Of a stretch of DNA of 64,000 nucleotides, positions 148 through 30,293 are shown one piece after another. Positions within the stretch are counted from its first letter, which is position 1, and each line of letters opens with the position of its first letter. This stretch comes from Anaerolineae bacterium (GTDB taxonomy: Bacteria > Chloroflexota > Anaerolineae > Anaerolineales > UBA11579), in contig SCUK01000051.1 of assembly GCA_004297445.1 (NCBI GenBank), positions 1-64,000 on the forward strand, in the 5' to 3' direction. The notes beneath the pieces were generated by a model. It saw only the letters and a list, made by a program, of their open reading frames with translations, did no database searches and was not told the origin of the DNA. Made by a program: the position numbers and the translations under genes.

Positions 148-531
148 TTGAGTTTGCAGGTGCAGAACCTACATATTCAGCGGCTTTTCCCGGGCTTCAG
201 CTTCCATACAAAGAAAAGCCGCAATGCGAGATGGCGTGGGTTTCTTCAGCCAAATATTACTGCGCCGAAATATCAATTGGAGATTTGTTACGACCTTACC
301 AGCACCCCAAAGGTAAGGGTGCTATCGCCGGAGCTTCCCTCTGGAACTCAGCATCTGTATAAAGATGGAAGCCTCTGTCTGTATTGGCCCAAGGAGTGGG
401 TTTGGACCCCACGTAAGATCATCGCGGAAACCATTTTGCCTTGGGCGGCTAATTGGCTGGCATTTCACGAGCTTTGGCTGGATACGGGCAAATGGCTTGG
501 TCCATCATCCCACGATACTCACCCAAAGTAG
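148..531 (+). CDS. E2-like (ubiquitin-conjugating fold) protein of a type II-short CBASS operon
   Basis: About 127 residues from a TTG codon; the start is uncertain because the frame is open back to 52. The protein matches the single-domain E2-like proteins of short type II CBASS operons: an N-terminal LFPGF segment, then HLYKDGSLCLYWP with the presumed catalytic Cys77, then ETILPWAANWLAFHELW and a TGKWLG tail near the C terminus. In characterised systems such E2 proteins join the cyclase to a target and raise its output. No E1 or JAB gene is visible, which fits the short subtype. The gene ends 5 nt before the nuclease-SAVED gene, so the two are probably co-transcribed. The cyclase would lie left of the window. 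Confidence 0.75.
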   Translation: MSLQVQNLHIQRLFPGFSFHTKKSRNARWRGFLQPNITAPKYQLEICYDLTSTPKVRVLSPELPSGTQHLYKDGSLCLYWPKEWVWTPRKIIAETILPWAANWLAFHELWLDTGKWLGPSSHDTHPK

Positions 532-536
532 AAATC

Positions 537-2201: not shown

Positions 2202-2253
2202 CAAAGCATAGTCTTACATAGCAACCATAAGAATTTTGCAAAGGACAATGATC

Positions 2254-7761: not shown

Positions 7762-10011
7762 TTATCTGCATTTCCCAAGCGGCCACAGTTCCAACTGCCG
7801 CACCGCCCCGGTCACCAGGCTGAGCACATCCCCTTCCTCCAGCCCCAGCGGTACCAGCAGCCCGTGCAATGCTCGCGCCAGCAGTCGCCGGTAGCGGGCA
7901 TGGTCCAGTTCGGCCGGCGCCGGCGGGAACGGCAGTCCCCAGGCTCGCACCGCCGGCGGCCGCCCTTTGAGATACACGAACCCCACCAACTGCCCAACCT
8001 GCACATCCTGCCCCGCGGCGCGCAACTGTCGCGCCGCTTCGGCCGAGGCAGACAGCCCACGGTACTCGTCCGGCTCACGCGTCAGCTTCTGCGAGACCGC
8101 CAGGTCGGCCAGCGGCACCCGTCCGGCGTGCAGGGCTGCCACGGCCTTCTGCGCCAGGGCCACGATCTCCGGCAGGGCGGTCTCCAGCGGCCGCTCGCGC
8201 GGCACCGCCGCCAGGATGGCCAGCGCGTCGGCTTCCGCCTGGGCGATCCAGGCCGGCGTGTCTCTGCGCCGCTGGGCAAGCCCGCGCACTTTGAGTTTGC
8301 CGTCCAGAAACTTGCCGAAGTAACGGTTGGCGGCCCCGACCCGCGGGTTGCCCTTGGCTGGTACGAAGGCCAGCCACTCGAACACCCCTTCCAGGTTCAG
8401 CACCAGCCCGGTGTCGCGCTGGATTTCTTCCAGCAGGTCCTGGAAATCCTGCGGCTCCGTCGCCCCCTGCCTCTGCACAAACAGGCTGTCGGTGTTGGCC
8501 CCCAACACGGAGTAACCGAGCCGGAAGGCGGTCTCTTTGGCAATGGTCAGGGTCTCGCGCCCCACCGCGCAGATGGCTTCATGCGCCTGGGGATGGCCAA
8601 AGCGATTGTTCTTGAATCCCTGATACCCGAACGATACCCAGCCCAGCCATTTCAGTCCTTCGGCGGCCGCCTCCAGCACCGGCCAGCGCGGGTCGTCTCT
8701 GGGGATCTCCTTCATCATCAGTTTCGCTTTGCGGCGCTTGGTCAGCACCGGCTTGAGTACTGTCGCCACCAGCCCCGGCTCATCCTGCGTGATGGGCGTG
8801 GCGGTCTGGGGCACATAGCGGTTGCTCCTGCCCGTCCTCCCTACGGTTTCGCCGCTGATATTCCACGTCGCCATGATCTGTGGGTACATGGAGAAAAAAT
8901 CCAGCTCCGCCACGCTGTAGTGCAGCCCGACCAGAGGGCGGTAGTTCAGGCCGCCGCGGTCGGCCAGATGGAAATCGCGCGCCGAGCGAAAGGGTTCGAC
9001 CTGGCGCTTATGGAGCGGCACCAGCACCCCGCGTCGCAGGGCCTCGACCATCTGCAACGCGGTGAACCCCGCTCCCGGGCTGCTGCGGGCGGCTACCTGT
9101 ACTCCCACCCCGGTGATGCGGGCCAGCTCCAGCGCCGCCGCCAGGCTGAAGCCGCCGAACATGCTGGTGTTGTGTGGGTCGATGTGCCAGCGGCCAAAAA
9201 GATGCGTCTGCCCGGCACGGTGGTGCACATCGCCGTACGAATAGAAGCGGAAGGCTTTCTTGTGGAGCACGTCCCGGCTAATATCGCGGTTGGGCTGGAA
9301 GGGGATGCCGGCCTGCGCCGCCCATTCGAACAGCTGCGGGAATAGCCAGGCGTCGCCGTGCGGGCAGAGCAGCAGGTCCGGGTCGAAGTCGTCCAGGATC
9401 GTCCCCAGTTCTTTCAGGACGTGGAGCGGTTGGGCTAGCGAGATCTCGCGCTCGGTCTCGCCGTAGATCAGCCGGAGAGAGCGCAGCGGCGTCTGCGCTG
9501 GCGGCGAGTCTGGCTGGATGTACAGCGTCCGTACCGGCGGGAAGTCGAACTGGAAATCCCAGGGATTGTCCAGGGCGCGGATACTTTCGATGCGCTTGCC
9601 ATCCACGGCCGCCTGGACACGGGCGGTGGGGAAGACGCCGGCCGCGGCCAGCAATCGTACCGAAAATGGGATATCGATATCGTAGTAGTACAGTCGCCTG
9701 AAGCGCCGGCGCAACGCCCTAGCCCACCGCATCGCGTGGATCTCGGTGGCCGCCTGAACGGCCAGCACGGTCTGCGGGCCGCGGAACAGCTCGCGCCGTT
9801 CCATGAATTCCATCACCGGCGGGTCTTGCCGCTCCGCCAGCCAGGCGCGGGCGTCTGCCAGGCAGTCCGACGCCCCGCCCAGGTAGAACGTCACCGGGAA
9901 GGGCATCGCCAGCCGCCTTCGGGCGCCGTCTTCCCCCAGCAGCCACAACACCGCCCCGGCCTGTTCGTCCGGGTAGGCATCCAGCAGCCAGCCGCGCAGA
10001 TCAGAAGTCAT
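7762..10011 (-). CDS. Family B DNA polymerase, likely without proofreading, last gene of a three-gene operon
   Basis: 749 residues. Polymerase motif A is ELDFFSMYP (catalytic D371). The motif B region is SFGYQGFKNNRFG (459-471). Motif C reads GANTDSLFV (504-512), with Asn where most family B enzymes have the first Asp of DTDS; the second Asp (D508) is kept. In the 3'-5' exonuclease region (about 160-270) I cannot find the D-x-E of Exo I, so proofreading is probably absent. The start overlaps the upstream coiled-coil gene by 11 bp. A translesion or repair role is inferred from this context and the missing exonuclease. Replicative use is unlikely, since bacteria use PolC/DnaE for that. Confidence 0.8.
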   Translation of the reverse strand: MTSDLRGWLLDAYPDEQAGAVLWLLGEDGARRRLAMPFPVTFYLGGASDCLADARAWLAERQDPPVMEFMERRELFRGPQTVLAVQAATEIHAMRWARALRRRFRRLYYYDIDIPFSVRLLAAAGVFPTARVQAAVDGKRIESIRALDNPWDFQFDFPPVRTLYIQPDSPPAQTPLRSLRLIYGETEREISLAQPLHVLKELGTILDDFDPDLLLCPHGDAWLFPQLFEWAAQAGIPFQPNRDISRDVLHKKAFRFYSYGDVHHRAGQTHLFGRWHIDPHNTSMFGGFSLAAALELARITGVGVQVAARSSPGAGFTALQMVEALRRGVLVPLHKRQVEPFRSARDFHLADRGGLNYRPLVGLHYSVAELDFFSMYPQIMATWNISGETVGRTGRSNRYVPQTATPITQDEPGLVATVLKPVLTKRRKAKLMMKEIPRDDPRWPVLEAAAEGLKWLGWVSFGYQGFKNNRFGHPQAHEAICAVGRETLTIAKETAFRLGYSVLGANTDSLFVQRQGATEPQDFQDLLEEIQRDTGLVLNLEGVFEWLAFVPAKGNPRVGAANRYFGKFLDGKLKVRGLAQRRRDTPAWIAQAEADALAILAAVPRERPLETALPEIVALAQKAVAALHAGRVPLADLAVSQKLTREPDEYRGLSASAEAARQLRAAGQDVQVGQLVGFVYLKGRPPAVRAWGLPFPPAPAELDHARYRRLLARALHGLLVPLGLEEGDVLSLVTGAVRQLELWPLGKCR

Positions 10012-11344: not shown

Positions 11345-11779
11345 TTAGCTTGTCGCAGGTGGTTCGGTCTCGTCGTAGGCCGAGAAGTCCCAGTCGCGCA
11401 GCACGAACGCCAGCTGGCGGCGTCCCTTCAGGCCGAACTTGCGCACCGCGTTGCCCAGATACACCTTGACCGTGTCCGGCGCCAGGTGCAGGCGGGCGGC
11501 GATCTGCGGGTTGGTGCGGCCCAGGCAGGCCAGGGCGGACACCTGCTGCTCGCGCTCCGAGAGCGTCTGCCAGCGCCGCACGTTCTCATCCAGTTCCTGC
11601 GTTCGCGCCGCGATGGCCTGCTGCAGCAGCCCCGCGGCGAGTTCTTCCGGCGTCATGCCCGCCTGATTCGCCAGCGCGTCCAATTGCTCCAGCGTCCCGG
11701 GCGGCAGCGCGAGGACAAGCCTCGCCTCGGCCAGCGCGCGCCGTAGGCGGGACTTCATGTAGGTGAAGGGTGTATGCAT
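11345..11779 (-). CDS. LuxR/GerE-type HTH transcriptional regulator
   Basis: 144 residues from ATG 11779; a longer form to 11854 would run through a palindrome and is less likely. The C-terminal half is a GerE helix-turn-helix: LSEREQQVSALACLGRTN, then PQIAARLHLAPDTVKVYL with the recognition helix. The N-terminal part is helical and resembles no receiver or autoinducer domain, so the signal is unknown. It may regulate itself through the palindrome at 11811-11826. Confidence 0.7.
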   Translation of the reverse strand: MHTPFTYMKSRLRRALAEARLVLALPPGTLEQLDALANQAGMTPEELAAGLLQQAIAARTQELDENVRRWQTLSEREQQVSALACLGRTNPQIAARLHLAPDTVKVYLGNAVRKFGLKGRRQLAFVLRDWDFSAYDETEPPATS

Positions 11780-11810
11780 CGTCTGATAGCCAATCCTATC
11801 CCCACAATAC

Positions 11811-11826
11811 CAGAACGGGTGTTCTG
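11811..11826. promoter_or_regulatory. Palindromic operator, SOS-box-like
   Basis: CAGAACGGGTGTTCTG has perfect 6-bp arms around 4 bases. The core GAAC-N4-GTTC is the form of Gram-positive-type LexA boxes. It lies about 30 bp upstream of the chosen LuxR-type start. LexA binding is an inference from the core alone. Confidence 0.4.
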
Positions 11827-11985
11827 GGGTCAAGGCAGGCAATGAAATTGTCACGAGTCTGTCGTCTAGCGCTTATTGGAAAGGGTCGCTGGCATTAGGT
11901 GATCCTCCCTTCTAGATAGCGTACGTTCTTCCTTTTAGGTTTCGCTGGCCTAGTCAGGCAAGTTCGGTAGTTGAGTGAACTGATT

Positions 11986-13299
11986 TCAGCTAGCCATCTC
12001 AGTCCGGTGGTTGTTGTTGGTCAGGAGTCCCAACTTATGAGCATAGCGATAGACCGATGCCTGCGACACCCCTAACTCGGATGCAAGCGCCCTCCTAGTG
12101 CACTTGGAATCCGTCCATTTGTTCCTGAGATGCTTCTGCCAAACCCTGCCATAGTCGATTACCCGGTCATAGCTGTGTTTGTTTACTCCCTCGAAATCCG
12201 GCCCATAACGAAGGTAGGAGAATCCACAACGACACCGGAATGTCCCGCTAATCCGATAAGGCCTGCCGCTTGCGGAGACTGCTACGGCTTTTATGCACTC
12301 ATTGCCGTAGTTGGAGCAAAGAGGATTTAGGCACGGCCATGGCCCTTTTCCGAAATATCCGGGAGCTTCGGTTTCAAACAGACTTTCCAAGTCAATGGAG
12401 AGAAATTCTGCAAGAAGGAGGTGATAGATTGGGGAGCCGTAGTTTCCACTCATGTTCATGACAGCACTTATCCAATTGTTTCGACTGGATGGAGAAATCA
12501 TTGCTCCCAGTTCATCCAGCAATTCTCGGTCAAAGAAGTCCGAAACCATTTGTGCAACCGCCCCATGTTGTTTTTGATAACGAAATGTCATAAGTTCGAG
12601 CTCAATAAGCGCTTTGTGATAGTGGGCGCGAAAGTGTTCGGGGCATCGTTTAGGGAGCGTGGCCTTGATCAGCCAGTCCGCCTTCTTTGCCAAGTTGAGG
12701 TAGTGCGCGCCGCTCGCCAATTCTTCGAAACCCCGTCCCTCTTCAAACGGATCCAACTCTTCAAGGGAAATGAACTCTCGCGGAGCTCGATGTTGATTCC
12801 CGCCGCACTTAATTGCATCCTCTAGTACCAAACTATGTTGGGGGCACACATGAACGATATCTATTTGATGGACCCGATGGAAGTACGCTTCTCCAAATGA
12901 TGCCCGGTCAACCCTTACGCACTCCGCACAATAGCGCAAAGGGCTACGTGTTGAGGCTTTACCCCGGTTGTGTCCATACCTTCCCAGGGAGTACCTTTCT
13001 GACGAACTGGCCATTTGGGCGCGAAGGCCCAAAGCCGCCTTCGTATCAAGAAACGCTGAGTGGTAGGGGTACAGCGTATGGAAATCGATGATGTGATCCA
13101 GGGTCAGCGAATGAATGGGGGATAGTCTGGACACGAATGCCTGCAAGTGATTGGGAAGATCAATAGGCGCCACTTGTGTGTTAGACCCAAACAGGCTTGC
13201 TATTAGGTCTTTGTTGCTGCCGCCCTGGAACTCTCTTCTATAGCGAGAAACGGCGCTATAGAAGATTTCTTCATTCCAGATGTCTCCAAAACCGTTCAA
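11986..13299 (-). CDS. tniQ: TniQ/TnsD-family target-selection protein, second copy
   Basis: 437 residues. I chose TTG 13299 because AGGAG lies 8 nt before it and the resulting N terminus (NGFGDIWNEEIFYSAVSR) aligns with the neighbouring copy (NSFGDIWREEIIYSAIAR). A zinc-finger region follows: RYCAECVRVD, then FGEAYFHRVHQI and VCPQH, and later a second Cys set (CLNPLC, CRCGF). The C terminus ends in a helix-turn-helix (ALASELGVSQASVYRYAHKL). In Tn7, TnsD binds the attachment site and recruits TnsC. Its strong likeness to the copy at 13861-15804 points to duplication. Confidence 0.85.
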   Translation of the reverse strand: MNGFGDIWNEEIFYSAVSRYRREFQGGSNKDLIASLFGSNTQVAPIDLPNHLQAFVSRLSPIHSLTLDHIIDFHTLYPYHSAFLDTKAALGLRAQMASSSERYSLGRYGHNRGKASTRSPLRYCAECVRVDRASFGEAYFHRVHQIDIVHVCPQHSLVLEDAIKCGGNQHRAPREFISLEELDPFEEGRGFEELASGAHYLNLAKKADWLIKATLPKRCPEHFRAHYHKALIELELMTFRYQKQHGAVAQMVSDFFDRELLDELGAMISPSSRNNWISAVMNMSGNYGSPIYHLLLAEFLSIDLESLFETEAPGYFGKGPWPCLNPLCSNYGNECIKAVAVSASGRPYRISGTFRCRCGFSYLRYGPDFEGVNKHSYDRVIDYGRVWQKHLRNKWTDSKCTRRALASELGVSQASVYRYAHKLGLLTNNNHRTEMAS

Positions 13300-13393
13300 C
13301 TTGAAGCTCCTGAGCACTACCCAGACAAATGGCTTCAGCGGCTTCTAGCCAGTAAGTCAAATAGTCTTGGCGCGTTGCCGGCGAAGCGAATCC

Positions 13394-13861
13394 CTAACCC
13401 GAGGAGATCTTCGTCTTTTGACAATGATTGCTACAGTATTTTCGCCAGGGCACATTAGGGACAAAGACCACTGAACAACCAGGGCGCAGGCACTTCCTGC
13501 TGCGCCCCAGTACAAGTGCTCCCTTTTCAACATTACTCCCGGGCGAAAAAACTTCTGTGGGGAAGCCAATTTGATCCGGTGCCTTTTCTGTTTCGAGGTT
13601 CTCTGCTAGTACTTGGATTGCCCTAGAAAGGCGCTTTCCGGGAATAAGTGATCCGGTGTGAACGCTCAGAATTGCTCTCCCGGACCATGCCGAGGTTTTG
13701 CCAGCCACAACTGCGAGATCGCGGCCAACAATCTCATAATCACGAAACTGCACTCTGTGCCTTCGAAGTTGCTGATCATATATTCCGGCTACTCCTCGTT
13801 TGATTAGGATGGCGACCAGAGCATCTCTGATTTCTGTGGCGTCTTTTGAAAAACGTGACAT
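13394..13861 (-). CDS. Small zinc-finger protein encoded inside the Tn7-like module
   Basis: 155 residues from ATG 13861, which overlaps the stop of the first tniQ gene (TAATG), so it is translationally coupled. The C terminus carries a four-Cys site: RKCLRPGCSVVF, then WRKYCSNHCQKT (C-x4-C, 13 residues, C-x3-C), recalling CGNR-type fingers. The rest is unrecognised. Placed between two target-selection genes, it may help DNA binding or regulate the module. No such protein belongs to canonical Tn7. Confidence 0.65.
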   Translation of the reverse strand: MSRFSKDATEIRDALVAILIKRGVAGIYDQQLRRHRVQFRDYEIVGRDLAVVAGKTSAWSGRAILSVHTGSLIPGKRLSRAIQVLAENLETEKAPDQIGFPTEVFSPGSNVEKGALVLGRSRKCLRPGCSVVFVPNVPWRKYCSNHCQKTKISSG

Positions 13862-15804
13862 TAATCTGACACCATTGAGGGCATAAAAAAGTGCGCTTCT
13901 ATTTCTTTGTAGGCTGTATCCAATGCGTCCTGAATCTCCTTCATGTGGCGAAGCCTGGATAACCCGGACACTCTTTCTAGCTGCCATTTCTTAATCGGAC
14001 GCCCAGACTCGATCATTTTCTTCTTGTTCCAGTTAATGCGTCTGACCGCAGACTGAATGCGAGATTCGACCACCTGCTCCAGAAGCGCTGCGCTTTTCGG
14101 CAAACGATTTAGATGCCTAACGACACTTCCCGTACATTTGATTTGTTTCACAATAGCAGACGTGGTAATTCGCTTTGGTCGATCACCCGATGTCAACAGC
14201 CGAAGAGCGATTTGCTTGATTTCATCTGCGCATTGATTGTCGCGTGCCGCCCAATCAACTAACGTTTCGTTAGAGCCGTTGTTGTAAGGCAGCTTTATCT
14301 GATTGGCACGTACAAATTCGCGGTCATACCGCATGAGCCATGCGTGCGTAGCAGGATCCACCTTGGCCATTTCTGAGGCACCAAAGTCTGGGTACTTTCG
14401 ACGTAGGGCAAGATATTTCTTGCGCCGTCGATACCGCTCCTCATCTGTAATTCGCGGTTTCCTCGGAGTAAATCGCGGCGTTTTCCGAGGATCTTTCTGC
14501 TTGCTACTTCCCGGACGGTCGATTGGGAGCTGAAGTTTGTGCGCGTGGCGTTGAACCGTAAGGGGTACAACCCCTAGAGCGGTTGCCAGAGATTCCAATG
14601 ACAGTGACGGATCCAGCCATCGATCGGCAAGATATTTTCCCCATTCCTCACCATAGTCTACGATATAGTCCAAATTGAATTTTCGTGCCCCCTGATAATC
14701 AGGTCCGTAGCGTCTATAAGTAAAGCCACAATGGCACCGGAATTCGCCTCTGAGTCGACGAGTGGCTCGGCAAGTGGAAATATCCACGTTATCGATAACC
14801 GGCATCTGATAGTCCGAGCAAACCCTGTTGAGGCATGGCCATGGCCCCCCGCCGAAGAACCCTGGAGGGCTCTCTTCGAACAAAATCTTGAATTCCAGCG
14901 AAAGAAAGAGGCAAACCAGGATATGGCAGATCGGAGTACTTACTTCCCCAGAGTTGCGAAGAGTTTTCAGCAGCCAGAATTGCTTCGATTTCGAATTTGT
15001 TGGCAATCCAATCGATTCCACCAATCTCATCGGAAACAAATCATTGAAGGCTCTAACAAGCTCTGAATTGTTCTTTACTTTTTTGCTGTAGGTCGAGAGG
15101 CCGACATCCGCCAATGTGCGCTGGTAGTGGTCGGTAAAATGCGTATACGATTTGGATTCATGCGGGTTTGAAAGGAGCCATTGCGCGCTTTGAGCGATGG
15201 CCAAATACTGGTTCGCATAATCCTGTGTGCTAATTGATAGGTCTTCTGCCTCCAGGGAGCATTCTTCCAGGGCCAGAAACGCTTGATCGTTCTTGTGAAA
15301 TCTGTACATGCCGACATTTGTATCTAGTAGCCTACACGCATGCTCTGGACATACCATAACAACTCCGATTTGATGAACTCGATGAAAATACGCCTCCCCA
15401 AACGTCTGGCGATCCTGCTCCACGCATCTCGGACAATATCGCATGTGCGCACGTCTAAGGTTTCGCTGCCACAGAGCTCCCAATATCGTGAAAATGCGCT
15501 GGCCCGACGAGCCATACATGAGCTCTCGAATCTCGGCAATTCGCTCTCCGTTCAAAAATGCTGTGTGGTAAGGAAAAAGTGTATGGCAGTCAATGATTTT
15601 ATCGACTGTCAAAGTATGCGTGGGAGATAAGCGACTGGTGAATTCTCCCAAGTGGCTTGGAAAGTCCACCGTGGCTCTGAGGTTTATTGTGCCAAACAGG
15701 TCCATCAAGAGGGAGCTATGTGATTTGTATCCCAGATCTCGTCTATGCCGTGCAATAGCGCTATATATAATCTCTTCACGCCAGATGTCGCCGAACGAAT
15801 TCAT
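13861..15804 (-). CDS. tnsD: TniQ/TnsD-family target-selection protein with long C-terminal extension
   Basis: 647 residues from ATG 15804, with AGGAG about 7 nt upstream on the minus strand, overlapping the tnsC stop. The N-terminal TniQ core has RYCPRCVEQDRQTFGEAYFH, then VCPEH and the later CLNRVC and CHCGF pairs. A helix-turn-helix follows (SLATALGVVPLTVQRHAHKL). The last 200 or so residues add further basic, HTH-like segments, giving the length of a true TnsD rather than a short TniQ. It should recognise the chromosomal attachment site. That site could not be identified here. Confidence 0.85.
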   Translation of the reverse strand: MNSFGDIWREEIIYSAIARHRRDLGYKSHSSLLMDLFGTINLRATVDFPSHLGEFTSRLSPTHTLTVDKIIDCHTLFPYHTAFLNGERIAEIRELMYGSSGQRIFTILGALWQRNLRRAHMRYCPRCVEQDRQTFGEAYFHRVHQIGVVMVCPEHACRLLDTNVGMYRFHKNDQAFLALEECSLEAEDLSISTQDYANQYLAIAQSAQWLLSNPHESKSYTHFTDHYQRTLADVGLSTYSKKVKNNSELVRAFNDLFPMRLVESIGLPTNSKSKQFWLLKTLRNSGEVSTPICHILVCLFLSLEFKILFEESPPGFFGGGPWPCLNRVCSDYQMPVIDNVDISTCRATRRLRGEFRCHCGFTYRRYGPDYQGARKFNLDYIVDYGEEWGKYLADRWLDPSLSLESLATALGVVPLTVQRHAHKLQLPIDRPGSSKQKDPRKTPRFTPRKPRITDEERYRRRKKYLALRRKYPDFGASEMAKVDPATHAWLMRYDREFVRANQIKLPYNNGSNETLVDWAARDNQCADEIKQIALRLLTSGDRPKRITTSAIVKQIKCTGSVVRHLNRLPKSAALLEQVVESRIQSAVRRINWNKKKMIESGRPIKKWQLERVSGLSRLRHMKEIQDALDTAYKEIEAHFFMPSMVSD

Positions 15805-15814
15805 GTCGCATCTC

Positions 15815-17341
15815 CTAAACCCAGCGATCAATTGGCACGATAACCCCTGATGCGCGCAGAGCGACCACAAAGTCCTTTTTCGTCCGGGTTGCTTCTCTGA
15901 AGATTCCACGAAGATCCGAAGGATCTAGCTGACTTTCGGTACGCCGGCTCGCGGACTTCTTCGTTTTTCTTGGTTTCTTGGGGAAATCATCTGATGAGGG
16001 CTCCTCCCCCGTGTTAGCTTCTCCTACTACGGTTAGATTCTCATTGGGCGCATTGGGCAGCTTTGTTATGGTTTCCTTGATTTCTATATCCATTGCAACG
16101 GCTTCAATTAGCTCTTTTACATCCAAAGGTCTCAAGTCCTCAATGGTCTTTAGTTTGTCGAGGTCTTTTGATTTCAACGCGTCCAAAGCCGTCTTTAGGT
16201 AGCCCAGATGATCTTTGGCTACGGAGCGAATCAGGTTGACTGTCAGACTTTCCATGCCTGTTTGCATGGATCGCGATTGAGCCAACATGAAGGTCTTAAT
16301 CGCCACATCGGTGATGCCTTGGCTTACTTCGTATAAAGCGTTGCTTAATTCATCACTGAGCGGGGACGGCTTCCGAATGTATTGGTATTTCCAGACGGCC
16401 TGCAGAAAAGCGCTCCAATCATCGCCCTTGTCTATACGGTGCCACTCTTGGGCCCCCTCTCCCGAGGATCGACGAGCCATTCGAAACTCGCCCTTGAACA
16501 GAGTGAGCGCTTTGTAAGTGCCAATCAATATCACCGGTATTCCCACCAAGTTAACCAGCGATACCAGATAATTCAAAAGCGTAGATCGTTCAACTCCTCT
16601 CGCGTCGACAAGATTCTGAATTTCATCTATGACCAAAATCCCTATTCGGTGTTGTTCAACGACAGTTTTTATCCCGAGCAGTTTCTCTCCTATGTTGCTG
16701 CGCCTATATATTTGGGAATAGTTTGTTCCAATTACATCGTCAACTGCTGCAAAAAAACCCTCGCAAAGTGCTGCGAGACGACCGTCATACGGACAGTCTA
16801 TTTTTAGCCATACAAGTTGGATGAAATTGAATTCCAATCCCATGTATTGACTATGAAACACCACCTGAGGAAATATTGACAACGCAGCACCGACCGCCGT
16901 CGTTTTCCCTATGCCCGAAATCCCTATCACCATAAATCCCGTGCCGCTCTTTTTGCGGTTCGCCTTTCGCTCCACTCGTGAGTGCAGCTTATGGAGAGAT
17001 CCGTCAACGATGTTTCGCCCCAGATAGCTCCGCCTGATTGCTATATCGATTGACCGAAAGAGCTGGATGTGCCGATGATCGGGTTTGATTAGCTCCAATA
17101 AAGTAAAGAGATGATGGAGCCGAATATGTGTTGGTTGATCTCGGCTTTCCACGACGAATTCCGGGTAATTTGCGAGAGATTTGTAAATCTCTTTATCCGA
17201 AAAAATCGGTGGTAGTGCCTCTATGAAAGGGTTTCTACGGTAACTGGGGACTTCTGATTTATGGTATTCTGCAGCTACAATTCGTCCTGCCCCATAAGCC
17301 GGCAGTGAAATTTCCTTCTGTTCAGTCTTGTGCGTTTTCAT
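15815..17341 (-). CDS. tnsC: TnsC-like AAA+ ATPase, transposition regulator
   Basis: 508 residues. Walker A is GISGIGKTT (140-148) and Walker B is ILVIDEIQ (235-242), as in the TnsC/TniB branch of AAA+ proteins. The N-terminal 130 residues and the charged C-terminal tail (about 430-508) are probably contact regions for TnsA/TnsB and TniQ. Known role: it links target selection to the transposase. The start overlaps tnsB by 20 bp and is preceded by GAGGAG; the stop is 11 nt before the first tniQ. Confidence 0.88.
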   Translation of the reverse strand: MKTHKTEQKEISLPAYGAGRIVAAEYHKSEVPSYRRNPFIEALPPIFSDKEIYKSLANYPEFVVESRDQPTHIRLHHLFTLLELIKPDHRHIQLFRSIDIAIRRSYLGRNIVDGSLHKLHSRVERKANRKKSGTGFMVIGISGIGKTTAVGAALSIFPQVVFHSQYMGLEFNFIQLVWLKIDCPYDGRLAALCEGFFAAVDDVIGTNYSQIYRRSNIGEKLLGIKTVVEQHRIGILVIDEIQNLVDARGVERSTLLNYLVSLVNLVGIPVILIGTYKALTLFKGEFRMARRSSGEGAQEWHRIDKGDDWSAFLQAVWKYQYIRKPSPLSDELSNALYEVSQGITDVAIKTFMLAQSRSMQTGMESLTVNLIRSVAKDHLGYLKTALDALKSKDLDKLKTIEDLRPLDVKELIEAVAMDIEIKETITKLPNAPNENLTVVGEANTGEEPSSDDFPKKPRKTKKSASRRTESQLDPSDLRGIFREATRTKKDFVVALRASGVIVPIDRWV

Positions 17342-19508
17342 TCTTTATCTCCTCGTCCCACAACGCATGTTCTAAGAGGTTTTTTGGGGGTGAGACATAG
17401 TCGTTTGTCGATTCTGAGGGATCGACCTTCAATTTGGCGCCTGCTGTTCGACCCTTGTCTGTAATGAAGGGGGTGGAAACACGCTCATCTTCGAGTTCCT
17501 TGGCCCTGGTTTTTCGGGAGTTCGCAGCGCTTACTTTTCCCCCAGATGGGGCTGCTCGAGATTGCTCTGAGCGAGCGTGTTCGGCCATAGCTTGTATGTG
17601 ATAGTTTCGATCAGAGATAGCTTGTTGTTTCATGGTCTCGCGATCATATCTAACGAGCGACTTGACTGAATCTCCATACAGCCACTCTGCATACTCGTAA
17701 TTTCCCCACAGAGAATCTTCCGGATGGAGAGTAGCAACCTCATAACCGTCAGTACTGGGTACACCGACATAAATTTGTCGGGGATTTCGGGGATCGTAGA
17801 TAACGCTCGTGCCTATATTCCGTTCAGAATGTCCGCTTATCCGCAATCCGAGCGCATCTATTTTGGGCGATATGTATTTGCGCCCAGAGAAATGAATTCC
17901 CTCACGCGAAATCGATCCATTCGCTCGGGGAAGTAGCCCTATCTTGTCGGTGTCGGGATAGTAGCTTCTGAGAATTCCAGTTCGATTGGTGATCCCCCAG
18001 TGCCATAAGTCTAAAGGATTAGTTATCAGACCTTCCGCCAATATTTGGGGGTCGAAAGGATAGTTTTCTTTGTCTATCTCATGGGTTAGGTTATAGGTCT
18101 GAAATTCGATAAACAGGATTTCTCTAATTTCATCCATCGTAAAGACCGCGTCATGCCGGTATTTCTTGCCTTCTCGTCCGGAAAGGTTATATGTGGATCC
18201 AGGAAGCCAGTCAACGACTTCTTGGTTCAATATGTGAAAGATGGATTCCACAATTGGCTTCCAGTCGGGGCGATAAGGAGGCAAATTGCTGAGCCGGATT
18301 CCCAGCCCAGAAACGATCGTCTCCGCCTTTTTGCTCGCGCCTTCTCCACGATCGAAAATGATTGACTGGCAGCGGCCCAGGGCAGGAACCTCAAGCGGAT
18401 TGACTTTGATGCCAAACAGGGTTTCGGCTAGAGGCGTTTTGTCACTGAACGCGTTGTCCAGGGCAAGCGCAGCGGCAATCCAACTCGGCTGTTCCAACGT
18501 CAGGTAAAAACCGACCACTAAGCCCGAAAAAGTGTCCATCACAACATATAGCCATGGCCTTCCGATCACCCATTTCCGGTTCAGCTTAGAGACTGCGTAG
18601 CAGTCCAAGTAGCATGTGTCTATTTGATAGCGCGAACCAGGGCCATAAGCGATCGAGAAGGCCGAGCCCCTAATGGGACGAAACCTCGTGTTAAAAGCTC
18701 TCTTCCCATAACGGGATTCGAGGTAATCCGTAGGGTTTTTTGCGCTGAGTTTCTTCCATATATATCTGAACTGATCAAGAGTTATAGAATCGTTCTGATG
18801 GGGAAGAATTGGCTTACGTATGCCTCCATTCATCTCGTACCCGACATTGAAAAACGTGCCCAATACGGCATTGTAGATCTTCGGGACTGAAAGCGGTGAA
18901 CTCTTGTACATCCGGTAGGCGGCGTAAAGCTTCGTTTCTACTTCGCTCGTTATGGGTATGCCTGGTCCCTCGCCGCGAATACTTTCAGCCAGGTTCCTTT
19001 TACCCGGCTTCTTGTCCGTAAACTTGCGCTGTTTTCCCTTCCCCCCTGACTTGGAATAATCTGGCAACAACGCATTTAGGATCTGACCGCGCTGCAGCCA
19101 GCGACGCAACCACTTATAGAGTGTCGGTTTCACTGACTTATCGCGTTCAATAGCAGAACGGATCATCTCGCCGCGCGAGATTGGATCAAAGATCAGATAG
19201 TTGGGATCACCAGAAGGAGTTTTGACCAGGGATTCGATGGACTTCCAGGCAGTCGCTCGTTTTCTTTTCGATGCTTCTGAGAGGTCCTCATCGCGTTTAT
19301 GCGATAGATAAGCATATGGATCGGGGACGATCTTCGCAATATCGCGTTCTATTAATGAACTCAACTCGGATATGCTGCGCCAAGAAGGAAGTGCACTTGG
19401 ATCATTAATATCTATGAAGACGAGTTGTTCTCGATTCGGAATCGCAAGAATGCGAAAATTTCTCTCCTCGCCAACAATCTCGAATACTTCATTTACGTTC
19501 AAGTTCAT
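17322..19508 (-). CDS. tnsB: TnsB-like DDE transposase
   Basis: 728 residues. The retroviral-integrase core carries D297 (YQIDTCYLD), D386 (IIFDRGEG) and E421 (KPIVESIFH), the D-D-35-E arrangement with 34 residues between the last two. Helical DNA-binding domains fill the N-terminal 250 residues, and a Mu-C-like beta domain and a charged tail follow the core. It cuts the 3' ends of the element and joins them to target DNA. It overlaps tnsA by 4 bp (ATGA) and tnsC by 20 bp. All three catalytic residues are intact. Confidence 0.9.
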   Translation of the reverse strand: MNLNVNEVFEIVGEERNFRILAIPNREQLVFIDINDPSALPSWRSISELSSLIERDIAKIVPDPYAYLSHKRDEDLSEASKRKRATAWKSIESLVKTPSGDPNYLIFDPISRGEMIRSAIERDKSVKPTLYKWLRRWLQRGQILNALLPDYSKSGGKGKQRKFTDKKPGKRNLAESIRGEGPGIPITSEVETKLYAAYRMYKSSPLSVPKIYNAVLGTFFNVGYEMNGGIRKPILPHQNDSITLDQFRYIWKKLSAKNPTDYLESRYGKRAFNTRFRPIRGSAFSIAYGPGSRYQIDTCYLDCYAVSKLNRKWVIGRPWLYVVMDTFSGLVVGFYLTLEQPSWIAAALALDNAFSDKTPLAETLFGIKVNPLEVPALGRCQSIIFDRGEGASKKAETIVSGLGIRLSNLPPYRPDWKPIVESIFHILNQEVVDWLPGSTYNLSGREGKKYRHDAVFTMDEIREILFIEFQTYNLTHEIDKENYPFDPQILAEGLITNPLDLWHWGITNRTGILRSYYPDTDKIGLLPRANGSISREGIHFSGRKYISPKIDALGLRISGHSERNIGTSVIYDPRNPRQIYVGVPSTDGYEVATLHPEDSLWGNYEYAEWLYGDSVKSLVRYDRETMKQQAISDRNYHIQAMAEHARSEQSRAAPSGGKVSAANSRKTRAKELEDERVSTPFITDKGRTAGAKLKVDPSESTNDYVSPPKNLLEHALWDEEIKNENAQD

Positions 19509-20332
19509 TTGGAGATAGATGAGCCTGGCGAGGCAGGAGAGAAGTGAGTGTTCCAGTCAATTTGCCATTGGTGTGTAGCTATCATATGGAGAGCGATGCT
19601 CAACGATGTTCCGGGTTCATGGCCGAGAAATTCATCGGCCTCTGCGCAAATATCTCTGAGGGCGCGATTGTTTCTCGGCATTTTGCCGATCAAATAGTCT
19701 CTGAGTCTTATTCGCGTTTTGCTTGATAGCGGCAGCCCGTCCTCGGTAGCATGGGGTTGGAGGAGCTTGCTGTTCTTGACAATTGGAACTTCCAGTTCAT
19801 CCTGTGTCATAACCCCATAGTTGATTGACAATGCGTCGAAATATCGGCGGGATATCTCGAGTTTTTGAACGGTTCTGGCTTCCCTAAGTTTGACTTTTGG
19901 TTTGATGTCACGTGCCAACCTTCGGACTGTCCCATCTATTGCAACAGTGACTAGAAAATCCACAGTCATAACAGTGAGATCTTGTGTTCCCGGTTCGGTG
20001 GGGTGTTTTATGCCGAGGTTCTCACAAATCTGGATAGTCATCTCTATGGGAAGCAGTGGAAACTGTTCGTTGATGTCGATTACGCGTGGATGCAAGTCGT
20101 AGAAGCAGAATGCCGTGTGTTCAAGTTCAGATAGCAAATGGTATATTCGCGCTATTTTGCTGCCGAGAACACGTGAATCGACTCCCAGTGATGAGAAGTC
20201 GGTTGTGAAGATCCAGGGGAGGTAGTTTGTTAGATTTCCCTGACCCCGCCCCTCCTTAAGTTTCTTCTGGATATTTTTTGCCGAGTTGGACTTTTTGGGT
20301 CTGCTCACTAGACTACTCTTGTTATTTAACAT
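19505..20332 (-). CDS. tnsA: TnsA-like endonuclease
   Basis: 275 residues. The nuclease fold shows E71 (SELEHTAF), D125 (MTVDFLV) and the K144 region (ARDIKPK), followed by KLEISRRYF, the family pattern. TnsA cuts the 5' ends, so this element should move by cut-and-paste rather than by cointegrate formation. It is the first gene of the minus-strand operon, with a strong promoter 30 bp upstream. No clear ribosome binding site precedes ATG 20332. Confidence 0.87.
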   Translation of the reverse strand: MLNNKSSLVSRPKKSNSAKNIQKKLKEGRGQGNLTNYLPWIFTTDFSSLGVDSRVLGSKIARIYHLLSELEHTAFCFYDLHPRVIDINEQFPLLPIEMTIQICENLGIKHPTEPGTQDLTVMTVDFLVTVAIDGTVRRLARDIKPKVKLREARTVQKLEISRRYFDALSINYGVMTQDELEVPIVKNSKLLQPHATEDGLPLSSKTRIRLRDYLIGKMPRNNRALRDICAEADEFLGHEPGTSLSIALHMIATHQWQIDWNTHFSPASPGSSISK

Positions 20333-20427: not shown

Positions 20428-20448
20428 AGCGAAGTGGAAGATCAGCTT

Positions 20449-20778
20449 ATGTCCAAGAAGAGTTTCTCCGAGTGGCTCGAAGGAAAACTCATGGAGTGGA
20501 TGGTAGCCAGCGGAAAACTGCGAACCCGAGGTGAGTTTGCTCGTTGGCTAAGAATTCACCCCGCAACTCTAAGTAGTTGGCTAAACGGAACTCGAAACCC
20601 GAGCTCAAAGCACTTATATGCTGTTGCAGCGAAATTGGGACATGAGGTATTCGAGTATGCTGAACTAGAAATCTTCGATGAAGATCTGGAATCCGTAATA
20701 GTAAATTGGTATCGCCTGAGTGAGTTGCAGAAGAAGAATATCAAGAATCTGGCTGTCCCATTAATGGAGGAAAAGTGA
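20449..20778 (+). CDS. XRE-family HTH regulator, first of a tandem pair
   Basis: 109 residues from ATG 20449 with GGAAG upstream; GTG 20434 would be almost leaderless. The helix-turn-helix is RGEFARWLRIHPATLSSWLN, followed by GTRNPSSKHLYAVAAKLG. The opening SFSEWLEGKLMEWMV resembles that of the next gene, so the pair probably arose by duplication. It is divergent from the tns operon and probably represses it and itself. Similar small regulators accompany other Tn7-like elements. Confidence 0.75.
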   Translation: MSKKSFSEWLEGKLMEWMVASGKLRTRGEFARWLRIHPATLSSWLNGTRNPSSKHLYAVAAKLGHEVFEYAELEIFDEDLESVIVNWYRLSELQKKNIKNLAVPLMEEK

Positions 20779-21158
20779 GCGCCAATCAGGATTCATTTAG
20801 GGAATGGATAAACGCTAAATACATCGAGTGGATGATGTCGATGGGGAAGAAGCGACCACTCTACGCGTTTGCGGAATTTCTCGGCGTTACTCAAGCCACT
20901 TTGAGTTTGTGGATGAGCGGAAGACGAGAACCAAATCATGATCATACGTTTCGACTTGCCAAGCTGTTCGGTCCTGAAATTTTTGTAATCACAAAGATGT
21001 TTGAGGGGTTAGATTCGAGGCACAAATTCGTCAGCGAGAACTGGCAACTGATCGATGAAAAAGACCGTGAGCAAATAATAGAGATTATTGAACGCGGGCT
21101 CGAAAGGAAGTCCAATAAACTTACTTCACTGAAATCGGCCGACGAAACAGGATCATAA
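20775..21158 (+). CDS. XRE-family HTH regulator, second of a tandem pair
   Basis: 127 residues from GTG 20775, with GGAGG 5 nt upstream and a 4-bp GTGA overlap with the first gene. The helix-turn-helix is YAFAEFLGVTQATLSLWMSG, followed by RREPNHDHTFRLAKLFG. The start SFREWINAKYIEWMM parallels its neighbour. The tail (110-127) is charged. The two proteins may form a heterodimer on the divergent promoters. Confidence 0.75.
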   Translation: MSANQDSFREWINAKYIEWMMSMGKKRPLYAFAEFLGVTQATLSLWMSGRREPNHDHTFRLAKLFGPEIFVITKMFEGLDSRHKFVSENWQLIDEKDREQIIEIIERGLERKSNKLTSLKSADETGS

Positions 21159-21722: not shown

Positions 21723-23741
21723 CTATGGCGTCGGCGTGCCTGTGAGTTCTTCGTACTTGGCAAAGTCTCGTTCAGCCTCGATTTCGCGTCCGAGTACCCT
21801 AAGAGCCACTCCGCGAGCGTAGTAGGCAATTGCGAATTCCGGGTCAAGTTCGATGGCCCGGTCGAAGTCCTGGACGGCGAGGTCGAAATTGAGTAGTCCC
21901 GCGTATGTAAGGCCGCGGTTGTTGTAGGCAAGCGCGAGTTTTGGGTCGAGCTCAATGGCCCGGTCGTAATCCTGGATGGCGCGTCTGTGGTCCCCAAGAC
22001 TAGCATAGGCAGCCCCGCGGTTGTTGTAGGCGAGGGCATATTCTCGGTCCAGCTCGATAGCCCGGTCGTAGTCCTGGATCGCGCGCTCATACTCGCCAAG
22101 GGCAGCATAGGCTTTCCCGCGATTGTTGTATGCGGTAGTAATTTCCGGATCCAGCTCGATAGACAGGTCATAGTTTTGGATCGCGCGCTTGTGCTCGCCA
22201 AGGGCGGCATAGGCAACCCCGCGGTTGGAGTAGACGGCAGCCAATCCCGGGTCCAGCTCGATGGCCCGGTCGAAGTCCAGGATCGCGCGCTCGTAATCGT
22301 CCAGACTGGCATAAGCGACCCCGCGGTTGGAGTAGGCGGCAAGATATTCTGGGTCGAGTTCAACAGCATGGTCGTAGTCCTGAATGGCACGCTCGTAATC
22401 GCCCAAATCAGCATAGGTGACCCCACGGTTGTTATAGGCGCTAGCAACTTCCAAGTCCAACTCGATTGCCCGATCATAGTCCTGGATCGCGCGCTCGTAA
22501 TCGTCCAGACTGGCATAAGCGACCCCGCGGTTGAAATAAGAGACAGCATCGTCCGGATCGAGTTCAATAGCTCGGTCGTAGTCCAGGATCGCGCGCTCGT
22601 AATCGTCGAGGAAAACAAACCCAAGCCCGCGACCAATATATGCGCTAGAGAATTCGGGGACCAGCTCGATAGCCCTGTCGTAGTCCAGGATCGCATGCTC
22701 GTACTCGCCAAGGGCAAGATAAGCAGCTCCTCGGTTGAAGTAGGCGGCAACACCTTCGGGGTCAATCTCAATAGCCCTGTCATAGTCCTGAACTGCGCGC
22801 TCGTACTCGCCAAGGGAGAGTTCGGACGTGCCCCGACAATAGAAGATTACTTCCAGGACTGTAACCAAGCGAACCTCGGAGGACAGCAAGTCTAGCGCTT
22901 GGTCGAAACGCTGAATGGCCTCGGGAAAGCGCGCCGCCTGGTAGTCCAAAACCCCCGCCAGAAAAGAAATCAGGGCGGCGGATTCCTCTCCGGCCTGCTG
23001 CTGGAACGCGAAGGACTCCAGTTCTCCGATTGCAACAATTGGCTGAAGTACCTCGCTTTCATTTAATGGAATGAGCGCGCCCGCGGATAGATTCTCGATG
23101 TGGATTATGATGTTGGGGTTCTCTGTCGGGCGATACCAGCCCCAGATCACAACGTCCGCCTGCCGATTCTCCCCGATTTTTCGTGCCCGGCTACTACCTT
23201 CAGCGGGCGAAATGACTTCGTTGAAGGGGATGATCCGGATTTCCAGGTCGTCACCAAATTCGGCATTGAGCTGTTCGAGGATCTCGTTGCGCAACCCAAA
23301 GGTATCTTCTGGGCCATCAAACTCGGCGATCAAGACGATGAGCCTCTCTTCCTGGGCCTGCCGGTGTTCGGTCACAGCCCACCCGCCCCCCACCCCCAGA
23401 AGGACGAGCGCAGCCAGCAACATCCACGCTACGCGCCGAGCTTTCTCCCCATAGGCCGGTTCGCGCCGGGTTTTCCGGGGGGCGCGGGTCCACATCGGCA
23501 GGATGATGGTGTCCGTGACCTCGTTCTGCTTGAGCCCCACCCAGAGCAGCCGTCCTACCAGGATGGCCAGGACTCCCCCAATCAGCAACCACGCCACACC
23601 CTGTTGATCACCCAGCCACAGTTTGTAGAAATTGTAGACGAGGGTCACGGCGGCCAGGAAGCCAGCGACCGGCAGCCAGAATCGCTTGACCAGTTCTGTG
23701 AATCGCTCGTCTTTTTTGGGGTCCGGGGCTTGAGACGTCAT
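21723..23741 (-). CDS. Membrane-anchored TPR-repeat protein
   Basis: 672 residues. Three hydrophobic helices lie in the N-terminal part (about 21-43, 48-70, 104-123). A globular segment (about 130-250) opens with IVLIAEFDGPED and includes ADVVIWGWY. About a dozen tetratricopeptide repeats of exactly 34 residues follow (about 255-660), with the consensus YNNRGVAYASLGDYERAIQD then YDRAIELDPE. The coding DNA is therefore a tandem array of 102-bp units. TPR arrays bind peptides or scaffold complexes. The partner is unknown, and no link to the flanking systems is visible. Confidence 0.75.
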   Translation of the reverse strand: MTSQAPDPKKDERFTELVKRFWLPVAGFLAAVTLVYNFYKLWLGDQQGVAWLLIGGVLAILVGRLLWVGLKQNEVTDTIILPMWTRAPRKTRREPAYGEKARRVAWMLLAALVLLGVGGGWAVTEHRQAQEERLIVLIAEFDGPEDTFGLRNEILEQLNAEFGDDLEIRIIPFNEVISPAEGSSRARKIGENRQADVVIWGWYRPTENPNIIIHIENLSAGALIPLNESEVLQPIVAIGELESFAFQQQAGEESAALISFLAGVLDYQAARFPEAIQRFDQALDLLSSEVRLVTVLEVIFYCRGTSELSLGEYERAVQDYDRAIEIDPEGVAAYFNRGAAYLALGEYEHAILDYDRAIELVPEFSSAYIGRGLGFVFLDDYERAILDYDRAIELDPDDAVSYFNRGVAYASLDDYERAIQDYDRAIELDLEVASAYNNRGVTYADLGDYERAIQDYDHAVELDPEYLAAYSNRGVAYASLDDYERAILDFDRAIELDPGLAAVYSNRGVAYAALGEHKRAIQNYDLSIELDPEITTAYNNRGKAYAALGEYERAIQDYDRAIELDREYALAYNNRGAAYASLGDHRRAIQDYDRAIELDPKLALAYNNRGLTYAGLLNFDLAVQDFDRAIELDPEFAIAYYARGVALRVLGREIEAERDFAKYEELTGTPTP

Positions 23742-24081
23742 GGTCCGCTCCCTGCGTCTGGTTCACTCATACGAGCCTTCAATGTGAAAGATATAGTTGA
23801 AGGCCTATACACTCTATTGCACAAGTGTATAACGCCCTATACACTTGTGCAATAGCATCCGCAGCCTGCTCTTTAAGCTTCAACGAGTACATGCGTAGCA
23901 GCGAATTCTCAACGCTAGAAGAAGCTATTGAGGCGGCATCTGGTCGGCATCCTGCCAATAGATGTCCAGTGAATCAAGACCTGATTAAGAGGCCCCTTGC
24001 TCGGGCCGCATGTATTCATGCCGGTTCGATAGAGCGCGGGGTTCCCTTCATCGGTTAAAATCCAGTCACGCGGGAAGACGC
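23742..24081. other. Intergenic region between TPR and methylase genes
   Basis: 340 bp separate two divergent genes. The one striking element is the 18-bp inverted repeat at 23814-23855. The rest (23856-24081) has an open frame of 77 codons that runs through the repeat and resembles nothing known. I see no clear promoter for the methylase operon. Confidence 0.5.
23814..23855. repeat. Perfect 18-bp inverted repeat
   Basis: The arms CTATTGCACAAGTGTATA (23814-23831) and TATACACTTGTGCAATAG (23838-23855) match at every base around ACGCCC. A partial third copy, CCTATACACT, lies just before at about 23804. The size fits a dimer-of-dimers operator or a recombination/transposon site. Its place between divergent genes favours an operator. 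Confidence 0.7.
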
Positions 24082-24789
24082 ATGCCCCACCCCACTCCCG
24101 CTTCGACCACAAAGAAAGCAGTGCACAGGCCAATGAATTACGTCAAGTCCAAGCAACGTGTCGCCGACCACGGGGAGGTCTTTACCCCGGCGTGGATGGT
24201 CGAGGCGATGCTTGACTTCGTGAAGGACGAGACGGAGCGCATTGACTCCCGCTTTCTTGAACCGGCGTGTGGCAGCGGCAACTTCCTTGTGCAGGTTCTG
24301 CAGCGTAAGCTCGCTGCCGTGGAACTGAAATACGGCAAATCTGAATTTGAGCGGCGGCACTATGCTTTGCTGGGATTGATGTGTGTGTATGGCATTGAGC
24401 TCCTGGCAGACAATATCGCCGAGTGCCGTGCGAACATGCTGGAAATCCTCGCTGACTACCTGAATCTCAATGAATTAGAAGACCTCTATCGGGCTGCCCT
24501 GTTTGTGTTGTCGCAGAACCTCGTCCATGGTGATGCCCTGAAGATGCGAACCAGTGAGGACGAGCCTATCACCTTCGCCGAATGGGGCTACCTCGGCAAG
24601 GGCAAGTTTCAGCGGCGCGACTTCCGCCTCCAATTTCTTAGTCTGTCATCAACGTTCGGTACGGGGAACACCCTCTTCCCTCATGATGGAAATCACGAGT
24701 TGTTCACCCCGACAAAAACCTACCCACCGATGACGGTAGGGGAGCTGGCCGGTTCAGTGCCCGGTGATGCTGTGGAGGTGACCACATGA
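24082..24789 (+). CDS. SAM-binding methylase-like subunit of a restriction-modification operon
   Basis: 235 residues from ATG 24082 (GGGAAG upstream); ATG 24133 is possible. Residues 31-40 (GEVFTPAWMV) and motif I FLEPACGSGNFL (58-69) are those of N6-adenine DNA methylases of the type I/Eco57I kind. The catalytic NPPY is absent: the chain goes from HGDALKM to RRDF without it. It may thus be a SAM-binding partner of the next protein, which has NPPY. The stop overlaps the next start (ATGA). Confidence 0.7.
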   Translation: MPHPTPASTTKKAVHRPMNYVKSKQRVADHGEVFTPAWMVEAMLDFVKDETERIDSRFLEPACGSGNFLVQVLQRKLAAVELKYGKSEFERRHYALLGLMCVYGIELLADNIAECRANMLEILADYLNLNELEDLYRAALFVLSQNLVHGDALKMRTSEDEPITFAEWGYLGKGKFQRRDFRLQFLSLSSTFGTGNTLFPHDGNHELFTPTKTYPPMTVGELAGSVPGDAVEVTT

Positions 24790-30061: not shown

Positions 30062-30175
30062 TTGAAAGAGTACAATGGCGAGACAGAATTCTGGGAATGT
30101 AGGTGTCGCCACATAATGTTACAGACTAAGAAAAGTCATTGAGCCTTTTGGGGGCAGAGATACGCCTTACTGTTT

Positions 30176-30227
30176 GTGAAGGACTACACTTACAGTAAAG
30201 GACTTTAATTCAAAGTAAAGAACTTTA
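30176..30227 (+). repeat. Three iterons upstream of the gmd promoter
   Basis: GTGAAGGACTACA (30176), GTAAAGGACTTTA (30195) and GTAAAGAACTTTA (30215) are direct repeats spaced 19 and 20 bp, about two helical turns. The last two are also near-palindromic (TAAAG-N2-CTTTA). They end 24 bp before the -35 box, a usual activator position. Confidence 0.55.
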
Positions 30228-30251
30228 TTACGATACAACAGGAATCCGTCC

Positions 30252-30293
30252 TTGACCTATTTCCGTCCGTCGCTATAATTCAGTCGTTGAATT
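30252..30293 (+). promoter_or_regulatory. gmd promoter with overlapping palindromic operator
   Basis: TTGACC (30252-30257) and TATAAT (30274-30279) are 16 bp apart. The palindrome AATTCAGTCGTTGAATT (30277-30293, one mismatched pair) overlaps the -10 box and the start site. The same arrangement occurs before the MarR-type regulator at 34682. GAGGAG at 30301-30306 serves ATG 30313. Confidence 0.75.

Follow-up and report, generated by a model that had tools for sequence, protein, structure and literature searches.

A Tn7-clade transposon upstream of gmd in an Anaerolineae bacterium carries a TnsD and a truncated TniQ as tandem target selectors

Among the described transposons closest to the one reported here are Tn7-clade elements at glmS, a group (clade 1 of Benler et al. 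2021) which, according to the accessible part of that survey, includes Chloroflexi (PMC8649781). For Tn7 itself, the available text of PMC2918618 reports that residues 1-309 of TnsD suffice for TnsC binding, that all five C-terminal truncations tested lost DNA binding, and that a TnsD shortened to residues 1-340 was isolated as a dominant-negative form. Loci with two selectors have also been surveyed: the accessible sections of Faure et al. 2023 count 998 dual TniQ-TnsD loci, which are polyphyletic and arose by in situ duplication, and describe in Tn6022 a partner of TniQ, TnsF, that has zinc fingers and inactive tyrosine-recombinase domains (PMC10293859). Dual-selector pairs are therefore already known, and the point of interest in the present locus is a Tn7-clade element that resides off glmS and in which the expected TnsD residues have changed.

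The window, that is, the whole 64,000-nucleotide stretch analysed, comprises bases 1-64000 of contig C73 (102,929 bp) from a host genome of 84 contigs that is 89% complete. Within it, tnsA, tnsB, tnsC and TniQ/TnsD genes lie together in one minus-strand operon, as in the Tn7 clade. TnsA, the endonuclease of the transposase (19505-20332, 275 aa), matched the Pfam N- and C-terminal domains PF08722 and PF08721 above cut-off (E 1e-16 and 8e-12). The DDE transposase TnsB (17322-19508, 728 aa) had a weak Pfam match (Mu-transpos_C, 19.5 bits, below the 21.7 cut-off) and was identified by alignment to the TnsBs of two Tn7-type elements, with 34% and 31% identity over about 700 aa; among the invariant columns of this alignment are D297, D386 and E421, which we take to be the DDE triad. 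The AAA+ regulator TnsC (15815-17341, 508 aa) was recognized by its TniB and AAA_22 matches (E 5e-12 and 9e-15) and contains the Walker A sequence GISGIGKTT. The long target selector, TnsD (13861-15909, an ORF of 682 aa that more likely starts at about 15804, with MNSFGDIW, to give 647 aa), combines a TniQ core, a second zinc finger, an HTH and a C-terminal helical region, and matched the TnsD profile PF15978 over positions 1-355 of 355 (E 2e-76) as well as TniQ (E 2e-19). The short TniQ/TnsD selector (11986-13317, 443 aa) has the TniQ core, the second zinc finger and the first HTH, and matched PF15978 over profile positions 1-232 of 355 only (E 1e-50) and TniQ PF06527 (E 3e-17). Between the two selectors lies a small ORF (13394-13861, minus strand, 155 aa, its frame open back to 13987), and on the plus strand, divergent from tnsA, there are two tandem XRE/HTH_3 genes (20434-21158; PF01381 above cut-off in the first and just below in the second), probable regulators of transposition or cargo. 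The five operon genes sit where the original prediction had placed them, as Pfam and the TnsB alignment agree; the 155-aa zinc-ribbon ORF between the selectors had been overlooked, and the interval 11986-20332, taken as the whole module, covers no more than the core: the element spans window positions 1 to 30240 at least, with a further part on contig C8.

Both ends of this element, and an empty site in a relative, were found, as had been proposed. The right end at 30240 was spotted first by eye and then tested by site scan, synteny and an end-pattern search. Read inward it is TGTTGTATCGTAATAAAGTTCTTTACT, with two strong TnsB-type sites and one weak one, all on the minus strand: the terminus TGTTGTATCGTAATAAAGTT occupies 30221-30240 (the element's last base being 30240), the nearest site, AATAAAGTTCTTTACT, lies at 30212-30230 and the second at 30192-30210 (scan scores 21.2 and 20.8, each word having itself been used to build the scan), and the third, at 30170-30188, was found in one scan only and is itself one of the three building words. 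The left end was located on a different contig of the host genome (C8:7848), where TGTCGCGTACAAATAAAGTTTTGAACT with three spaced sites is preceded by GGAAT. Both ends begin with TGT and bear TnsB sites of Tn7 type, as expected of the Tn7 clade, and this element's TnsB-site consensus also adjoins tnsA in relatives. Across the 3.25 Mb genome the end pattern occurred without mismatch only at C8:7848 and C73:30240; allowing two mismatches added four matches, and a reversed control pattern gave 6.

The insertion is flanked by a 5-bp target-site duplication, GGAAT, at 30241-30245 and at G000:C8:7843-7847 (G000 being the host genome), and a same-genus genome, G249, holds the clean, uninterrupted site, ATCGTCGGGAATCCGT, which reads ATCGTCG-GGAAT-CCGT with a single GGAAT; such a duplication with an empty site is again as in the Tn7 clade. 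Synteny with G249 starts exactly at 30241 on the right (83% identity), and on the left the G249 gene beside the insertion point encodes a 684-aa membrane-type protein whose host homologue (74% identity) is on C8. Because the end pattern is unique, the GGAAT is shared and the empty site exists, the two parts belong to a single inserted element with at least 7.2 kb on C8 and 30.2 kb on C73. It thus occupies window positions 1-30240 and G000:C8:7848-15074 plus an unsequenced gap, for an inserted length of at least 37 kb (37.5 kb recovered over the two contigs with the gap between them), and may contain nested elements. Between the stop codon of the membrane-protein gene and the insertion point the host has about 110 bp more than the G249 empty site (L108:7709-7842 versus L103:11698-11719).

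Several other candidate boundaries were discarded. The site scan found no TnsB-site cluster beside the 11986-20332 interval, ends close to the operon were rejected when no repeats or inverted matches were found at 11.3-12.1 kb or 20.3-33 kb, and a TnsB-type site at 3822 is a chance match within an ORF. The LuxR gene (11345-11854), considered as a flank, gave only distant copies in a homology search and none near-identical, because the gene lies inside the insert. A tRNA target was also dropped, the sole tRNA called in the window (8966-9058) lying inside the polB ORF; this ARAGORN tRNA-Thr call is on the same strand as the family-B DNA polymerase ORF and is probably false. A tRNA search of 32 further loci was also negative, and an Rfam search of the window returned nothing at gathering scores.

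Cargo is present on both sides of the operon, tnsA lying 9.9 kb from the right end; the corresponding distance in an element of G200, a genome of the same class, is about 6 kb. A second G200 element (L059:168-8040) is about 8 kb long, has a single TnsD with C at position 515 and carries at most a little cargo, and the DNA outside its right end resembles, by eye, an adenine-methylase gene. On the plus strand at 148-3945 is an anti-phage set of CBASS type, comprising an E2-like protein, a SAVED effector and a 569-aa protein (PADLOC E2, E 6e-41; SAVED, E 8e-18); the SAVED effector, at the contig start, is also Mrr-like, its 569-aa neighbour is without a Pfam match, and no cyclase was seen on contig C73. 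Three further plus-strand ORFs (24010-28911; Eco57I, N6_Mtase and ResIII; PADLOC REase_MTase_IIG) form a restriction-modification cargo of the type II/IIG kind, and the remaining recovered cargo includes HEAT and TPR proteins, a family-B DNA polymerase and a two-component pair. The TPR protein gene (21723-23741) holds ten tandem 102-nt repeats within one ORF, and between it and the restriction-modification genes lies a perfect 18-bp inverted repeat with a 6-bp loop (23814-23855, CTATTGCACAAGTGTATA), possibly a regulator site or a terminator.

The element is inserted 72 bp upstream of gmd and not downstream of glmS. The host's own glmS has an intact 3' end followed by ordinary sequence, so that this site is empty, and the 1.5 kb beyond it holds no TnsB-type site. 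Just outside the right end is a sigma-70-like promoter of gmd (TTGACC-N16-TATAAT, 30252-30279, plus strand), which overlaps the stretch (+23 to +58) that Tn7 TnsD would occupy and whose motif is also found in the G249 empty site. When the 400 bp around the insertion were compared with the 36-bp TnsD site of glmS, the score was 18 of 36, with a shuffle mean of 17.6 and 240 of 500 shuffles equal or better; four glmS flanks scored 25-28. As the element's present location, the stretch immediately 5' of gmd is a candidate for a new site, though a single insertion is too few to call it an attachment site.

For a wider view, glmS residence was scored by the glmS end ...DVDxPRNLAKSVTVE-stop upstream of tnsA in 47 distinct elements (44 loci less three duplicates, plus six others including that of the window). 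Seven were set aside, having no tnsA on the contig (L016, L055, L061), a contig start too near (L030, L043), or a glmS that is reversed or 7 kb away (L045, L060). Among the 40 scorable elements, several of them near-copies, 26 are at glmS and 14, the window element included, are not, a few of the 14 having little upstream sequence (about 350 bp in L015). Four Acidithiobacillus elements (L020, L034, L036, L037) are 97-99.9% alike over thousands of bases, and glmS adjoins tnsA in L037 only. They are a natural example of two landing routes, and because such near-identical elements differ in glmS residence, residence off glmS does not by itself imply retargeting.

The long TnsD itself has changed at positions that track glmS residence in this sample. 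In 15 glmS-resident first TnsDs, R515 and P503 are invariant (15/15 each), D413 occurs in 14 and R404 in 13, whereas the window TnsD (whose numbering is used here) has L515, I503, V413 and E404; the scaffold residues W518, D522, P543, P569, E580, R588, R589 and W607 are kept. R515 is likewise absent from the first TnsD of L021, L015, L016, L045, L048, L051 and L060 (this last, from Sphingomonas, with glmS 7 kb upstream and K at 515) and from the second TnsDs of L021 and L022, and it is kept in 5 of the 14 full-length non-glmS TnsD rows (L020, L025, L026, L034, L040). The Anabaena lutea locus (L021:13766-17715) encodes two full-length TnsDs, both without the glmS-linked residues, and no glmS was found on it. 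As the window TnsD is divergent throughout, with a mean identity to the glmS group of 27-32% by region, part of the substitutions may be drift. In an AlphaFold2 model of the long TnsD (pLDDT 74) the core matched Tn7 TnsD (8glu, E 1.4e-10); in the models of both selectors the match to Tn7 TnsD was confined to the core, and with no useful PDB match to the C-terminal half there was no template by which to map the glmS-linked residues onto DNA. Off-glmS residence and the residue changes jointly make it likely, at the level of sequence, that the long TnsD has been retargeted away from glmS. If this is confirmed, positions 404, 413, 503 and 515 would bear on how TnsD reads glmS and how it is retargeted.

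The two selectors are related, as originally predicted: both matched the Pfam TnsD and TniQ families, and in a tree of 39 TniQ cores they are sisters with 100/100 support and 39% identity. They arose, on this phylogenetic evidence, by local duplication, as did the pairs of Geomonas limicola L031 (630 and 463 ORF codons; support 98/96) and Sphingomonas L060 (575 and 318; 100/98). With one tnsC, one selector of 647-682 aa and one of 443 aa, the locus has the form of a dual locus, which usually pairs a selector over 400 aa with a smaller one. Two selectors are also present in the relatives L014/L028, L016, L021, L022, L024, L031, L050, L051, L060, L143 and L144, and a Pfam search of ten ORFs near the second selector in seven such loci found no Cas protein. 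In L016, from genome G151, the end beside the short TniQ directly adjoins a thiolase gene at its 3' end (L016:11481-11600). The pair is thus ordinary, being a local duplication of the kind surveyed in 2023, and the suggestion that a pair free of CRISPR parts is unusual did not survive comparison with the 998 loci counted in the accessible sections of that survey and with paired relatives in which the small number of adjacent ORFs searched included no cas gene; the proposal of two routes to a target agrees with the view of dual loci given there (PMC10293859). Viral contigs contained no TnsB relative, and the 90 plasmid records matched by the short TniQ were all below 60% identity. Elsewhere in the host genome, a third TniQ (G000:C79:9912-10328, locus L005; a 346-codon frame) stands beside a distant TnsB relative (24%) and belongs to a separate transposon.

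The small ORF between the selectors has the best frame of six for operon codon use and a relative elsewhere in the host genome, on contig C72 (37%, E 4.5e-26); with the C72 protein as query, relatives at 38-40% were found in 2 further genomes of the family, and a phylum sample of 400 genomes gave, the element's own genome aside, one weak match only. No relative was found in viral contigs or plasmids. Three of the sequences compared share a C-terminal, CGNR-like zinc ribbon (the only Pfam match of the ORF being zf-CGNR at E 0.03), and an HTH is probable by eye. No recombinase match of the kind expected for a TniQ-TnsF pair was found in Pfam. In L143 the gene immediately upstream of the short TniQ is of XRE type, in a position that regulators often occupy, and on sequence grounds the small ORF is a candidate regulator or partner of the short TniQ.

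Taking these observations together, we give an even chance to an explanation in which this is a CRISPR-free, cargo-rich Tn7-clade transposon with a retargeted TnsD and a truncated TniQ that serves a second, non-CRISPR route. TnsA and TnsB would cut and paste the element under licence from TnsC. The long TnsD would read an attachment site directly; owing to substitutions at positions that are fixed in glmS-resident TnsDs, it would recognize the glmS site no longer, or only weakly. The short TniQ, which keeps the TnsC-binding core, would probably act on a second, protein-assisted route, because the C-terminal region for site-specific binding is absent, and the HTH/zinc-ribbon ORF next door would be its candidate partner or regulator.

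A serious competitor, to which we assign somewhat less than an even chance, is that the element reached gmd by an untargeted or plasmid-type pathway while its long TnsD still reads glmS. The Acidithiobacillus elements, both at and off glmS, set a precedent, and the gmd site is a single promoter region seen once; against this, the TnsD has lost R515, P503, D413 and R404, which glmS-resident TnsDs have without exception or almost so, and the host glmS site stands empty. As to the TnsE pathway of Tn7, no TnsE was found among the 28 ORFs of the recovered element compared with Pfam. The same 28 ORFs, which are a selection of all possible ones, contained no Cas protein, so that the predicted absence of cas genes and CRISPR repeats holds across the recovered 37.5 kb, including the 7.2 kb at the left end on C8, the far end of the element at which cas genes might have lain. 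Repeats of at least 20 nt within 120 nt were confined to TPR codons at 102-nt spacing, and neither cas effector genes nor an array, the marks of a CRISPR-associated transposon (CAST), occur in the recovered parts. We accordingly consider it very improbable that cas genes and an array lie in the unassembled gap, even though the element is split over two contigs. The failure to find Cas1 in the host genome (84 contigs, 89% complete) is weak evidence here because CASTs often lack Cas1. A TnsD with a TniQ is the known arrangement in type I-B1 CASTs, as far as the accessible part of PMC11406308 goes, but the short protein continues into an HTH after its core, whereas CAST TniQs are, in the portion of PMC10293859 available, largely core.

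The function of the short selector is a separate matter. It keeps the CCCH ligands C130, C133, C158 and H161, the second finger and the first HTH, and stops where TnsD runs on for ~210 C-terminal residues; in its AlphaFold2 model (mean pLDDT 80.7) the confidently predicted core matched TnsC-bound Tn7 TnsD (8glu, E 3e-13), with weaker matches to a type I-B CAST TniQ (8fcu) and to another TnsD (8v32). Such a protein has the make-up of a TnsC-binding truncation and might, as a TnsD without its DNA-binding end, occupy TnsC and keep transposition low, much as Tn7 TnsD truncations still bind TnsC and the 1-340 form is dominant negative in the available text of PMC2918618; it is also encoded last in the operon, beside a regulator-like ORF. 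We regard such a brake as unlikely. The two DNA-binding modules retained are more than a brake needs, and because of them we favour a role for the short TniQ as a partner-dependent second selector; in CASTs, moreover, a TniQ comprising little beyond the core can be an active selector, according to the accessible sections of PMC10293859. Nor is it probable that the protein is a duplication leftover that has so far no function. Its branch is long (1.28, against 0.63 for the long selector in the TniQ-core tree), no orthologue of the pair was found, and the other dual loci found in the phylum (G151, G200, G334, G401) share only about 22-31% with it. On the other side, the 443-codon frame is open, both zinc-finger ligand sets are kept, and the codon signal resembles that of the other tns genes, the short selector itself being in the training set, so that the suspicion of a decayed duplicate holds as far as truncation and fails as regards visible decay. 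A bolder version of the partner-dependent selector seems to us quite doubtful: here the small HTH/zinc-ribbon protein would combine with the short TniQ into a non-CRISPR selector of a new type, with the gmd promoter region as one target. In it, a captured DNA-binding protein, related to that on C72, would supply the address and TniQ would pass it to TnsC, as TnsF does in Tn6022; should the small ORF indeed prove to be such a partner, one more case of a co-opted address module would be added to those known.

The element was not met in the literature searched, which is no proof of absence, and its resemblances to known systems are divided. Like Tn7, it has the gene order tnsABCD, TGT ends, TnsB sites of AATAAAG type and a 5-bp duplication, and a CCCH zinc finger at positions 124, 127, 152 and 155, in the same numbering as Tn7 TnsD. 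Unlike Tn7, it showed no tnsE in the recovered parts, and unlike Tn7 and the glmS clade it resides off glmS though that site is free, has a second, shorter selector and separates tnsA from the right end by 9.9 kb of cargo. With type I-B1 CASTs, as described in the available text of PMC11406308, it shares tnsA, tnsB, tnsC, a TnsD and a second TniQ in one element, and differs in that cas genes and a CRISPR array were not found in the recovered parts. The short TniQ beside a small zinc-ribbon gene recalls TniQ and TnsF of Tn6022 in the accessible part of PMC10293859, but the neighbour here is of 155 aa, has no tyrosine-recombinase Pfam match, and is at most a putative binder of TniQ. It is also like the dual TniQ-TnsD loci of the same source, with a large and a smaller selector in tandem, local duplication and no need of CRISPR, the small ORF between the selectors having no counterpart in the related loci examined. 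To that group, whose second selector is mostly unexplained, the present locus adds a well-delimited CRISPR-free, dual-selector Tn7 element, with its ends, target-site duplication and empty site.
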